From positions 1 to 25,388 of the IMG/VR virus record IMGVR_UViG_3300009425_000084: a stretch of 25,388 nt of DNA. One strand, written 5' to 3'. The notes under the pieces were generated by a model. It had not been told where the DNA came from and searched no databases. It saw nothing but the letters and a program-made list of their open reading frames with translations. Numbering within the stretch: the first letter of the stretch is position 1; every line of letters starts with the position of its first letter. This document shows, in pieces, positions 726 to 23,559 of the stretch. Made by a program: the position numbers and the translations under genes. Source of the DNA: a virus.

Positions 726-3700
726 TTATGTTGCCAATGCTAAAGCTCGAAAGTCTTTGATTCGAGGTGGTTGTGCAGAGTTTGTTCCCTGTAACACTAC
801 TTTAATTGCAAACTGAATGAAACTATCCAACTCAGTTCCAATACCATCATCTGTAACACCAGCTGTATAGACATACTCTCGTAAATCAGATTGGGTTAGG
901 GATGAGGGTGTAGTTACATCGGGATCAGCTGTTCCGTTAAACATTGTCCAACCCAAATCATCAAAGTTAGATGCATCATCCGTCCTCAAAATCTTATAAA
1001 GAACTTTGATTTCAGAAGTACTATGTCGATATCCAGAGAAGAACACTTTTATAGCAGTAGCAGGATTTTCTAGGGTAACACGTTTTGTCATATAGATGGC
1101 AGCGTTTTGATCACCCTCTTTACCTGTTAATGCAACATAATCCGTTGTTGGATAAACATCAGATGAAGAGTCAATATTGTTCAGTCGGTTTGCAACTGCT
1201 ACAAAATTTGTCCTTGATAAATCAATTACTGGTGAAAGATTTTCTCTATCCGAATGCAAGTTCATATCAATATTTAGGGATTTACTACCACCCAAATGGG
1301 TTGTTTCATTAATGGGAGAACAAATCATTCTAGTTATATCATGCACGAAATTTTCTTCCAATGGAATAGTAATTGCATCAGACGTAGCTGTAAGTGAGAA
1401 TGAACTTTCTACTCCAGAAGGACTTGTTCCTGAAGTTCCTCGCATCTTAGTAGAAATAGTAGTATCTGGTAATGCCATAGTGGAGCATAACAAATCAGAT
1501 ACATTGTATATAGCATTTTCTGTTGCTAAAACGGTAGTTCCACCATTACTAGCAACACCTGATCCTCCAATAGTAGGAGTACTGGTAGAAAGTGCAAGTG
1601 TATAAGAATCCATACCAATATTTGATATACTAGAAAAGGTTTTATTTACTTCTGTAAGAGGAACACCATGTAGACTATAAAATTCTACGGTTGAACCATC
1701 AGCATGTGATACTGCATTTGTTGAACCTTGAGCTCTCGTTACATTAGAGACATTAGTTCCACTAATTGTAGTGTACTTTATAATCTCATCATTAATTTTA
1801 ATATACCATTCACTACTAGAATTATATCTGTATCGTCCTGTAGTATCATCAAAGTTTGTACCAGACAATAATACTAATGATGCTGATGAAGATGTTATCG
1901 CACCATTTAGTGTTGTAGACGCACCAGATTTAACTCCAGATAATGTAACATTATTTGTGGTGTTATACATATGATGATTCTTATGCAATACTCGTAAAAC
2001 TGCACTACCAGTTGTAAAGATCAATGGGTTAGCGGGCAACGTCTTTGATGGTAGAGTTTTATTCTGCAATGTCAATTTACCATCTTTTCGATCATCAAAT
2101 CTAGCAACATTCAGTTTGTACTTAATATCCTCCGTGAGAGAAATTGACCAACCCGTATTGTTATGTGATTTGAAATGAACACCCAAATGAGGTTGTTTAG
2201 AAACGTGTCTTGTTTTACCTATTTCCCTTTCACCCATTCGAGAAATCCAAATTTTATATTCAATGGAATGAGAGAAAACAACAAAACAATATTCTGTATC
2301 TGGTTTTAAAAATACAGGTGAAGGAAACGTAAACTTGGTGGCAACTGTTGCATCATCTGATATTAGAACATCAGCTGCTTGTACATAAGCACGACCAAAT
2401 GGCATAATCTTTCCGCCGGGATATCCGTTTTCAGTTGTTCGTATCTCAACCCAAGTTGGAAGAACATCATCTTTACTAAAGAAGAATATATCCAAACTTG
2501 TAACAAACTGTCCACCTTTCATAGATCCAAGGGCGCCGGTGGTATAATGTTTATTTTCTTTGTTATTTTGAACTGCGAAAGTTTGAGCTAGTGGATCACC
2601 ATCATCACCACCACCATCGCCACCATCATCACCACCACCATCATCACCAGCATCATCACCACCATCACCATCACCACCATCACCGAAAAAGGGCTGTTGA
2701 ATCACACTACTTGATGAAGAAGTAGAAGATTCTGTAATAGATGTTGTATCATTTGTACCCCTTCTAACAACTTCAGCATTTCTTGTCGCAATAATGGTTT
2801 CTTGTTCAGTTTCTAAAATTCCTTTTGCATAGTAAATTGATTCACCAGCAGTAATTGGTTTGGTGGCACGGTCATTAGTTTGACTTGAAGTTAACCTAAA
2901 TGATACTTCACCAGTTTGGAATCGTAAATTACCCAACGTCCTTGGATCAGGAATTGTAAATACACCCTCAACCTTACCAGCACCATTTGTAATTAATGGA
3001 CTACCAACAATAGGAACATTTACAGAACCGTCACTATATTGTGCTTCTTTTGGTTTAACATGAAGACTCACTGCTTTTTCTGCAAAGAACAAGTACATAC
3101 GAGTGTTGGGATAAAATCCCTCTCCGTCAAATGTAATCTCTTTACTTCTACAAAAAGGTATCATGGCACGTTGAATAATTTTACTACCTTGTGATTCCCT
3201 ATCAATTTTTTCAAGGACTTGAGTGTTAACACCAGTTCGTGTCAAATCTGACCGTGTGGTTGAAGTAGTTCGTGAATTTCGGGTGATACCACCTTGACCA
3301 TCGAATACATCATTTGAAGTTGTTGAGGTTGCAACAACACCACTCCACTGAGTCTGCCAAGCGTTCCAAATTGTTCCTAATGCATCTTTGTTCTCATTGA
3401 GAAGTGTACTATAGTTACCTTCCACATTAATAACAAGAGCAGGAGCAACTTCGGTTTCAAACCAATTATCACTATCGGGAGATAATGTTATTCTACCCAA
3501 CCACTGACTAAGCATAACAGGTTGTACACGTTCAACTCTAGTTGCATATGGTTGTTCTGTATATACAACTTCAGTATAAGGTAGAGTAATCAAATCCCCT
3601 GTCTTTTGATAATGGGCAGATGTTCTATCAGTATCACTCGAAACTGATTCTTCTAAGTCAACTCCCTTAGAGCAATGCATAGGACGTAGAGTATTATTAA

Positions 3701-20767: not shown

Positions 20768-21226
20768 TTATCGAATGAAACCGAAACTATCTCTAGTTCC
20801 CGAACCATTACGACCATACCCACTGTTGTAGGCATTCTTTTCCATTCGACGCTGATTCTCTTGTTCACGTTTCGCTACTCCACGATTACATGCAGAGCGA
20901 GCACCCTCATTCGCATATCCAGCGCAGCGACCTGACCCGACCTGCGGACGATACGTCACTGGAGGCTGTTGATAGATCACAGTAGTACGAGGGCGATCCA
21001 TAGATTGTCCCACAGAGGAACCAGAGATCGCACCGATTACCGCACCAAGTGCTGTCGCAGCAGTCTTACCAGAACCTTTACCGAACTGATTTCCTACTAC
21101 CCCACCAGCGACTCCGCCGATAACAGTACCCATCTGAGAGTTATTAAACCCACCAGAGGTCGCATTACATGCACCGAGCATGAGGAACGCCCCCACAGCA
21201 GTGACTATTTTTAGTTGTTTGTTCAT
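20768..21226 (-). CDS. Glycine-zipper outer-membrane lipoprotein (17-kDa antigen type)
   Basis: The 152-residue product has a lipoprotein signal peptide: MNKQLK, a hydrophobic core, then lipobox LGAC with the acylated Cys at residue 20. Residues 33-75 are a glycine zipper (MGTVIGGVAGGVVGNQFG, GAVIGAISGSSVGQS), as in the Rickettsia 17-kDa antigen/SlyB group. The C-terminal part is basic and Gly/Asn-rich with one Cys pair (CAGYANEGARSAC). I chose ATG 21226, behind AAGGAAA, instead of the upstream ATG pair at 21250. It has its own consensus promoter at 21261-21289. Codon and base use look less A/T-rich than in neighbours, which may mean capture from a bacterium. A role in altering the host envelope, superinfection or lysis is possible but unproven. 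Confidence 0.82.
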   Translation of the reverse strand: MNKQLKIVTAVGAFLMLGACNATSGGFNNSQMGTVIGGVAGGVVGNQFGKGSGKTAATALGAVIGAISGSSVGQSMDRPRTTVIYQQPPVTYRPQVGSGRCAGYANEGARSACNRGVAKREQENQRRMEKNAYNSGYGRNGSGTRDSFGFIR

Positions 21227-21260
21227 GTTATTTTCCTTTCTGAACATCAATTATAGATAC

Positions 21261-21289
21261 ATTATATATCAAAGGTCAGCTTTTGTCAA
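21261..21289 (-). promoter_or_regulatory. Consensus sigma70-type promoter with TGACC block (P3)
   Basis: Minus strand: TTGACA at 21284-21289, 17-base spacer, TATAAT at 21261-21266. Both hexamers are perfect. The predicted start is near 21254, giving a short leader for the lipoprotein gene at 21226. The spacer contains TGACC, at the same place as in the other two promoters of this region. Confidence 0.85.
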
Positions 21290-21301: not shown

Positions 21302-21598
21302 TCAAGTGTCCCTACAATAGGGCATATTATCATCATCCCATGAGTATGTCTCACAACCCATGTCAATAAGTAACTCTATGTCGTGATCTCGACAGACTTT
21401 GTTTCCCTTAAACATACGAAACACTGCACAATCCTGCTGCATTCCAGCAGATACCACATTGTCAATTGCACCCTTACCCGTAGTGACCTGAGAAACTACG
21501 TCAGCACCAGACATAATAGTGAGAACACTACTAATCCCAGCGCCCGCACATCCACTCACAAGGAGTGAGATCGCAACTATCGGGAGTATTCTTCTCAT
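21302..21598 (-). CDS. Small lipoprotein (98 aa)
   Basis: The product has a clear lipoprotein signal: MRRILPIVAISLLVSGC, with lipobox VSGC and acylated Cys17. The mature part is short, with a Gly/Ser-rich stretch and then paired cysteines (DCAVFRMFKGNKVCRD and GCETYS...YCRDT) that could form disulphides in the periplasm. I chose ATG 21598, because the signal peptide begins exactly there and the ATG overlaps the stop of the 49-residue membrane gene as ATGA. A longer frame to 21691 would put the signal sequence in the middle of the protein. It could be an outer-membrane spanin-like or exclusion factor, but the sequence does not decide this. Confidence 0.75.
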   Translation of the reverse strand: MRRILPIVAISLLVSGCAGAGISSVLTIMSGADVVSQVTTGKGAIDNVVSAGMQQDCAVFRMFKGNKVCRDHDIELLIDMGCETYSWDDDNMPYCRDT

Positions 21599-21744
21599 AA
21601 CAATATATATAATAAACCTGACAGCAACAGTGTGATTAATACCATACCATGAATAAATCCCCAAAAATATGCATTGATAGGATTCCTCCAAGGAAACGTA
21701 GAATCATTGCTCCTATACATATTGGGTGTGTGTCGTGGAGTCAT
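21595..21744 (-). CDS. Very small membrane protein (49 aa)
   Basis: ATG 21742-21744 opens a frame of 49 codons ending with TGA at 21595. The first 25 residues are polar (MTPRHTPNMYRSNDSTFPWR). The rest is one strong transmembrane segment (NAYFWGFIHGMVLITLLLSG, then LLYILL) that ends the protein. Its ATG overlaps the stop of the tRNA-containing ORF and its stop overlaps the start of the lipoprotein gene, both as ATGA, so all three are probably translated from one message by coupling. One membrane segment next to a small lipoprotein suggests an envelope or lysis role, as inference only. Confidence 0.68.
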   Translation of the reverse strand: MTPRHTPNMYRSNDSTFPWRNPINAYFWGFIHGMVLITLLLSGLLYILL

Positions 21745-22091
21745 CTTCCTATATCCTTTACATTACTCTTAGTGATTACCTGATATGCACCCTTGTTATA
21801 TGCGGGAGCAATAGTGAAATTGTGTGGGAGTATTTTTTTCTTAGGAGTCTGTCCTGTAGGAATGTTATTACTCAGGGGAGCAATGGTGCTCTCGACAGGA
21901 CTCGAACCTGTGACCCACGGCTTAGAAGGCCGTTGCTCTAATCCAACTGAGCTACGAGAGCTAATACCCATCTTCTTTAGGAACTTAGCATGCTTGGCGT
22001 CTGCGGCAATAGTTGCTTTGGACTTCTTTTTAGATTTACGCTTGCGAGTATTCGTAGTCGAATAATACACAGGTAGTAATGAATAGCTCAT
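21741..22091 (-). CDS. Basic protein (116 aa) with a tRNA gene embedded in frame
   Basis: The ORF starts at ATG 22091 behind GGAG seven bases upstream and reads through the complete tRNA-Arg gene without a stop. Residues 1-44 are basic (VYYSTTNTRKRKSKKKSK, then DAKHAKFLKKMGI). About residues 44-70 are the translated tRNA (SRSSVGLEQRPSKPWVTGSS). The remainder ends in IAPAYNKGAYQVITKSNVKD and IGR, which looks like genuine protein and resembles C-termini of small phage proteins I have met but cannot name. Both ends join neighbours through ATGA overlaps, strong evidence that ribosomes use the frame. Function is unknown. The alternative is a shorter gene broken by tRNA insertion; the intact frame after the tRNA argues against that. 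A GTG start at 22166 would overlap the 34-residue gene and is less likely. Confidence 0.62.
   Translation of the reverse strand: MSYSLLPVYYSTTNTRKRKSKKKSKATIAADAKHAKFLKKMGISSRSSVGLEQRPSKPWVTGSSPVESTIAPLSNNIPTGQTPKKKILPHNFTIAPAYNKGAYQVITKSNVKDIGR
21884..21961 (-). tRNA. tRNA-Arg (anticodon UCU), CCA encoded
   Basis: The full cloverleaf can be drawn by eye: acceptor GCTCTCG with CGAGAGC (7 bp), D stem GCTC with GAGC, anticodon stem ACGGC with GCCGT around loop CTTCTAA, five-base variable loop, T stem ACAGG with CCTGT around TTCGAGT, discriminator A and encoded CCA. The anticodon TCT reads AGA (and AGG), Arg codons favoured in A/T-rich phage genes. All stems are perfect. No promoter is adjacent, so it must be cut from the operon message. 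It lies entirely within a protein frame on the same strand. Confidence 0.96.
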
Positions 22092-22192
22092 CCGTAGACT
22101 CCATGTGTCCAAGTAGAGCTCACAATCAGGTAACAGAGAAACGTCATACTGAAACCGGCTATGCACCCATAGACAAAATCTTTAGTAATCAT
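22088..22192 (-). CDS. Very small membrane protein (34 aa)
   Basis: ATG 22190-22192 follows a strong AAGGAGA ribosome site at eight bases and opens a 34-codon frame. The product (MITKDFVYGCIAGFSMTFLC, then YLIVSSTWTHGVYG) is almost one transmembrane helix, about residues 7-28. Its start overlaps the stop of the 141-residue gene (TAATG), and its TGA overlaps the ATG of the tRNA-containing ORF. Size and composition are like small phage membrane regulators or holin-associated peptides, but there is no proof of function. Confidence 0.65.
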   Translation of the reverse strand: MITKDFVYGCIAGFSMTFLCYLIVSSTWTHGVYG

Positions 22193-23270: not shown

Positions 23271-23559
23271 AGCTACCGTTTCGTAGCTCTTAGTCGGCTC
23301 ACAGCTGACTCGATAGTAGGTGGAGTAGGGGGGAATCGAACCCCCCGTTAGGTAGTGTGAGCTACCTTGATATTGTCTCACAACAATCCCGACTCTCTGA
23401 TTACTGTCAGCTTCACCGAGCGATCTTCAGTCTTCAGTCCATCAGGATATATATCATTCACGCAACCAGCATCTCCGTTATAATGGTAATGAGTACAGTG
23501 TCAGGACACATAGCAATTCAGCAATTTTCGAAACCCCACACGGGACACTGTTCTCATTA
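23271..23559 (-). ncRNA. Candidate structured RNA with kissing hairpins and tRNA-like T-arm
   Basis: This gene-free segment follows a consensus promoter whose predicted start is at about 23558-23560. From its 5' end it can form a 15-bp helix with one mismatch (23544-23559 with 23487-23502). Then come hairpin A (ATTGT, loop TGTGAG, ACAAT; 23372-23387), hairpin B (GGTAG, loop CTCACA, CTACC; 23351-23366), a perfect T-arm GGGGGG-TTCGATT-CCCCCC (23328-23346) followed by CTACTCCACC, hairpin C (23292-23310) and hairpin D (AGCTAC, loop, GTAGCT; 23271-23288). The loops of A and B are exact complements. No complete tRNA fits, and no terminator follows, so it may be a separate RNA cut from the message or a long leader of the 84-residue gene. 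Its boundaries and family are unknown. Confidence 0.6.

Follow-up and report, generated by a model that had tools for sequence, protein, structure and literature searches.

A small protein gene of marine T4-like phages that appears to carry exchangeable tRNAs in frame

A family of small genes in marine phage contigs carries complete tRNAs, sense-oriented and in frame, with a conserved protein part on either side, an arrangement which, judged by comparison of its many relatives, is real, widespread and strongly selected. It is probable, in our opinion, that the phage gene is bifunctional, that one transcript of it would serve either as tRNA precursor or as mRNA, and that it would act as a docking site for exchangeable tRNAs. 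The case from which we started is a 116-codon ORF in a stretch of 25,388 nucleotides (the window), positions 1–25,388 of the IMG/VR virus record IMGVR_UViG_3300009425_000084. This contig represents part of a T4-like phage genome: it encodes a baseplate wedge protein (PHROGs phrog_219, E 3e-178) and has homologues in the SAR11 phages HTVC008M and Mosig, the former of which also carries a homologue of the 116-codon ORF. The T4-type baseplate genes and this homologue place the contig with the HTVC008M-like T4-type marine phages. The features of the region, in window positions, are:

22088..22192 (-): putative upstream 34-codon ORF, its stop overlapping the start of the 116-codon ORF (ATGA)
22099..22102 (-): GGAG, Shine-Dalgarno-like, 7 nt before the ATG, read in the sequence
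21741..22091 (-): 116-codon ORF (N-module, tRNA and C-module, stop included), open throughout, both ends shared by relatives
21962..22091 (-): N-module MSYSLLPVYYSTTNTRKRKSKKKSKATIAADAKHAKFLKKMGI, basic, with a predicted helix at residues 25–40; kept in relatives, pooled dN/dS 0.36
21884..21961 (-): tRNA-Arg(UCU), 78 nt, CCA encoded, in-frame reading SRSSVGLEQRPSKPWVTGSSPVEST; found by ARAGORN and by Rfam RF00005 at 72.8 bits (cut-off 29 bits)
21741..21883 (-): C-module with spacer, up to the stop codon; pooled dN/dS 0.22, third-position excess
21744..21821 (-): conserved C-terminal motif NFTIAPAYNKGAYQVITKSNVKDIGR, a partial match to phrog_4593
21595..21744 (-): putative downstream 49-codon ORF, its start overlapping the stop of the 116-codon ORF (ATGA)

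The first-pass annotation of this DNA had recognized the tRNA-Arg(UCU) with its encoded CCA, its position in sense and in frame wholly inside the ORF, and the GGAG site; ARAGORN and the Rfam model agree with it on the tRNA, the frame is open through the tRNA, and the GGAG is present in the sequence. It had further proposed that the ORF is coupled to a gene on either side. Both ATGA overlaps exist, but the flanking 34- and 49-codon ORFs have no match in the fetched relatives.

Viral contigs searched with the 116-codon ORF yielded hundreds of relatives, which have in common a basic N-part (LLPVYYSTTNTRKRK... or shorter variants, also basic), a linker predicted to be disordered, and a conserved C-part of type A (NFTIAPAYNKGAYQVI.K..IKDIGR) or type B (YTGTEIIGIAQMHKSNAVPV...AKMRRG). 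Both C-part types occur in PHROGs as families of small phage proteins with no assigned function (phrog_4593 and phrog_27048), which have their C-terminal motifs in common with the tRNA-bearing ORFs; the window protein matches the phrog_4593 profile at residues 91–116 only (E 2.6e-4). Unlike the window ORF, the members of these families in HTVC008M, Mosig, PhiW-14, ACP17 and C48C1, where they are annotated as hypothetical proteins, and in BUCT-ZZ01, where the gene is unannotated, contain no tRNA. The cultured relatives in the searched collection have such tRNA-free versions, and the tRNA-bearing form is absent from the cultured phages there. Sequence searches of Pfam and PDB with the protein gave no significant match, and those of Pfam, PHROGs and PDB no function. 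Judging by these relatives, the 116-codon ORF is a member of a real protein-coding gene family.

One or two tRNAs lie between the N- and C-parts in 128 of the 207 distinct ORFs which bear a C-part. Among these 128 the tRNAs are Ala-UGC, Arg-UCU, Asp-GUC, Pro-UGG, Thr-UGU, Glu-UUC and Met-CAU, and the tandem pairs are Arg+Pro, Ala+Pro, Arg+Met, Arg+Ala, Glu+Ala and Met+Pro. A later scan added an embedded tRNA-Trp (L490, 46.4 bits), which brings the kinds to at least eight. The reading frame is not fixed with respect to the tRNA: tRNA-Asp is read in three different frames across groups and tRNA-Ala in two. Median protein length is 105, 122 and 147 residues with none, one and two tRNAs, so that a tRNA appears mostly to add to a tolerant linker. 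An AlphaFold2 model (25-row alignment; overall pTM only 0.25) has a confident helix at residues 25–40 (pLDDT about 92 at residues 21–40) and a short hairpin in the C-part; the tRNA-encoded segment, with pLDDT about 45, is probably disordered. In two relatives (L072, 1338–1412, and L174) a tRNA-Asp stands immediately before the ATG of a family member that has no tRNA inside, and is not nested, which is possibly a step before or after nesting.

The frame is open through the tRNA in all 128 distinct tRNA-bearing ORFs (75/75 of type A, 53/53 of type B). Scans from a single end were run to avoid bias: with the C-part only (A1), all 38 loci with a tRNA between the parts were open and one further tRNA preceded the ATG; with the N-part only (A6), 72/72 were open, plus three more when read by hand, making 75/75. 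Stops or frameshifts beside the tRNA in relatives, named by the first-pass annotation as what would refute its proposal, were thus sought from both ends and none was found. When tRNAs are clustered at 90% identity the used frame is open in 37/37 clusters, which are not fully independent of each other, as against 21/74 for the other two frames (Fisher p 9e-15). Ten clusters of non-embedded tRNAs have 11/30 frames open (Fisher p 2e-9 against the used frame), a rough comparison in that some of the ten are in fact embedded and were missed by the C-part pattern. Eight further tRNAs were found on the same phage contigs, none of them inside a long ORF. These counts support selection on the frame through the tRNA. 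That the tRNA is intergenic and the ORF an annotation artefact, akin to spurious tRNA-derived peptides, is ruled out by the frame counts: tRNAs do often have one open frame (28% of the other frames of embedded tRNAs, 37% for non-embedded ones), yet here it is always the used one and runs between conserved protein parts with dN/dS of 0.22–0.36, the other tRNAs of these contigs are not so placed, and cultured phages such as HTVC008M have annotated genes for the tRNA-free members.

We compared 411 pairs of relatives matched for tRNA content. The part before the tRNA has a dN/dS of 0.36 and the part after it one of 0.22, with an excess at third positions, as against 0.75 for the tRNA segment, in which codon periodicity is almost absent. 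The flanks evolve as protein-coding sequence does; the part behind the tRNA, which the initial reading had taken for real coding sequence, proved to be so by its dN/dS and its conservation in relatives. The tRNA fold is kept as well. In the embedded tRNA-Ala, 14 of 21 stem pairs have changes on both sides, and 368 of 378 cells are paired. Based upon flank dN/dS and stem covariation, both layers are under selection, and the same DNA appears to be maintained in two capacities, as a tRNA and as coding sequence for a protein.

RNA ligases are among the enzymes that T4-like phages can encode, and it might be supposed that the tRNA is excised like an intron and the message halves rejoined before translation. 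However, in 81 of 101 single tRNAs the length is not divisible by three. Their exact removal would disrupt the very frame which is conserved with the tRNA included, and we give this explanation hardly any credence.

The content of the slot changes often and in frame. Two relatives with near-identical flanks (L019 and L029) have a tRNA-Ala of 76 nt in the one and a tRNA-Pro of 77 nt in the other, and a one-base shift at the 5' junction preserves the frame. In L146 a tRNA-Pro remnant with an altered anticodon region and a 3-nt in-frame insertion is no longer called as tRNA, and the frame continues through it. In five others (L127, L130, L131, L132 and L134) partial tRNA-Pro ends lie, also in frame, behind an intact tRNA-Ala. 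On the tree we count at least 46 changes of tRNA content in 203 rows, 15 presence changes included, and at least 29 in the 87 rows of the LLPVYY group; these counts are rough, as few columns support the trees. One tRNA-free linker (L473) was considered as a decayed tRNA-Trp and rejected, the DNA alignment showing no tRNA-Trp.

The protein parts on either side of the slot vary in their combination as well. One N-part is joined to either C-part type with the tRNA slot between them (L009–L015, L024 and others versus L001–L030), which suggests module exchange at the tRNA. In L112 and L444 an unrelated sequence, SIDEKDKEIECLRAENTAQSAAIDLLKDALSRTKRRQP, replaces the usual C-part after tRNA-Arg, and the frame is still open.

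In type B the C-part often opens, behind the tRNA, with a Met-Ala/Ser-Lys stretch. One might therefore argue that the tRNA is the sole product of the middle region and that the C-part is initiated separately behind it, with no read-through. The frame through the tRNA would then be free to close, yet it is open in every ORF of type B and type A alike; furthermore, no start is found consistently behind the tRNA in type A, and the decayed tRNA of L146 remains in frame. As a general account this is very improbable, although in type B, where an ATG often stands just there, separate initiation after the tRNA is possible.

The cloverleaf might alternatively be mRNA structure only, a tRNA mimic rather than a working tRNA. 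A few embedded tRNAs are weak, such as the 79-nt tRNA-Thr at 3118–3196 of L033 (34.8 bits), which is perhaps in decay. Against this, most of those tested score 57–73 bits with Rfam (the L490 tRNA-Trp being moderate), and the embedded tRNAs have the intact cloverleaf, the encoded CCA and the covariance-model scores of functional tRNAs, with covarying stems and normal anticodons, which together specify eight amino acids or more; pure structure would need no isotype features. We regard a mimic as improbable.

For the bifunctional gene, then, we propose the following. A single transcript would encode a small protein and, within its disordered linker, a complete tRNA. Ribosomes may translate straight across the tRNA to give the full protein, or the tRNA may fold and be excised by RNase P and 3' nucleases, the molecule being lost as message; on any one RNA molecule the two fates would be mutually exclusive. 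Selection would keep both products, the tRNA through its fold and the protein through its frame and flanks. Since the linker presumably tolerates almost any 25-residue peptide, the gene could act as a docking site at which recombination adds, doubles, exchanges and removes tRNAs, provided that the frame stays open. Transcription, translation, processing and the competition between the latter two are what we infer from this layout. The benefit of tRNA exchange would presumably lie in codon supply, or in replacing host tRNAs hit by anticodon nucleases.

Potential promoters resembling those of sigma-70 were identified upstream of 82 of 124 tRNA-bearing ORFs, compared with 49 of 4060 shuffled controls. 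In 79 of the 124 the -10 box ends 6–8 nt before the ATG, so that leaderless or nearly leaderless messages are predicted; in tRNA-free members it lies mostly 23–31 nt from the ATG. Relatives with such predicted leaderless-message promoters upstream of the ORF include L005, L029, L078 and L283. Shine-Dalgarno sites are rarer in tRNA-bearing ORFs than in tRNA-free members, and most tRNA-bearing relatives are without one. The raw counts linking tRNA presence to a leaderless promoter or a missing Shine-Dalgarno site are strong, but there are only seven independent contrasts and the association is not significant. The window itself is an exception, having a Shine-Dalgarno-like site and no sigma-70-like promoter at the ATG.

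These leaders bear on the proposal that folding and cutting of the tRNA is a regulatory switch which controls the protein and whatever genes follow it. In this layout one molecule can meet only one of the two fates, as Mukai 2021 (PMC8124441) also proposed for selB/tRNA-Sec, and a promoter at the ATG together with rarer Shine-Dalgarno sites would weaken translation. On the other hand, the downstream genes vary and coupling to them is not conserved, the leader difference loses significance once relatedness is counted, and eight exchanged tRNA kinds with frequent loss favour a tolerated passenger over a fixed switch. We therefore think a switch rather unlikely. The first-pass annotation had gone further and suggested that tRNA processing controls the operon. 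That excision would destroy the message follows from the layout; the wider suggestion found no backing, since the neighbours are without matches in the fetched relatives, the ATGA overlap at the stop occurs in tRNA-free ORFs as well (33/79, as against 69/128 tRNA-bearing ones), and most tRNA-bearing relatives have a sigma-70-like promoter at the ATG instead of a place within an operon. We regard operon control through tRNA cutting as a possibility without support.

Returning to the docking-site reading, a more specific form of it can be offered only tentatively: a dedicated tRNA docking gene, the linker of which would be a recombination slot for cassette-like exchange of functional tRNAs under dual selection, with maturation and translation competing on one, often leaderless, transcript and so setting protein output during infection.

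Rickettsia palindromic elements are structured repeats of a mobile family, inserted in frame and spread over many protein genes. They share with the phage case a structured in-frame element tolerated as extra peptide; theirs are mobile repeats in many genes, ours many tRNA kinds in one gene family.

The closest precedent is selB/selC of Alphaproteobacteria, where tRNA-Sec is nested at the end of selB, described as the first instance of a tRNA gene nested within a protein ORF of bacteria (Mukai 2021, PMC8124441) and the only case of a bacterial tRNA wholly nested in a protein ORF in the literature searched. Common to both systems are a whole tRNA placed in frame and in sense orientation within a protein ORF, a stop codon that often overlaps the following start, tRNA remnants that have decayed without leaving the frame, and a proposed either-tRNA-or-message logic. 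The selB case involves one tRNA species, a C-terminal SelB extension and a length that is mostly a multiple of three. In the phage gene, by contrast, the tRNA is internal, at least eight kinds and tandem pairs occupy one slot with frequent exchange, and lengths are mostly not multiples of three. The selB/selC overlap proper was rejected as an identification, the protein having no Pfam match and the isotypes being Ala, Arg, Asp, Glu, Met, Pro, Thr and Trp, as was a C-terminal tRNA extension of the selB kind, since 38–60 codons follow the tRNA and include the most conserved part of the protein. A mitochondrial tRNA-Lys inside cox1 of Armadillidium vulgare (Doublet 2015, as cited in PMC8124441) is likewise described there as a whole tRNA in direct orientation within a coding region, with processing competing with the message; as cited, it differs in being a single case in a compact animal mitochondrial genome, with no exchangeable tRNA set. 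No nested tRNA in a phage was found in the literature searched, most subscription papers being outside its reach, and the parts seen of a pelagimyophage survey list tRNAs without mention of nesting. What is new here is widespread, internal and combinatorial nesting, in which a single site holds no fewer than eight kinds of tRNA, and several tandem pairs. Its variants form a natural experimental series for studying the sharing of one RNA between ribosomes and RNase P, and the ways in which phages acquire and swap tRNAs. Such genes will stay hidden wherever a gene finder discards ORFs that overlap tRNAs, or tRNAs that lie within ORFs.

Elsewhere in the window two further elements were observed. 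Positions 23291–23475 (-) hold a candidate for a structured RNA, conserved and ending like the T-arm of a tRNA (GGGGGGTTCGATTCCCCCC), but no full tRNA; no Rfam family fits it. It is 81% identical in another phage contig (L408, 1500–1665), where ARAGORN reports a doubtful tRNA-His. Finally, a perfect sigma-70 promoter (TTGACA-17-TATAAT) lies at 21261–21289 (-), its -10 box about 11 nt before the start of a glycine-zipper ORF (20768–21250).
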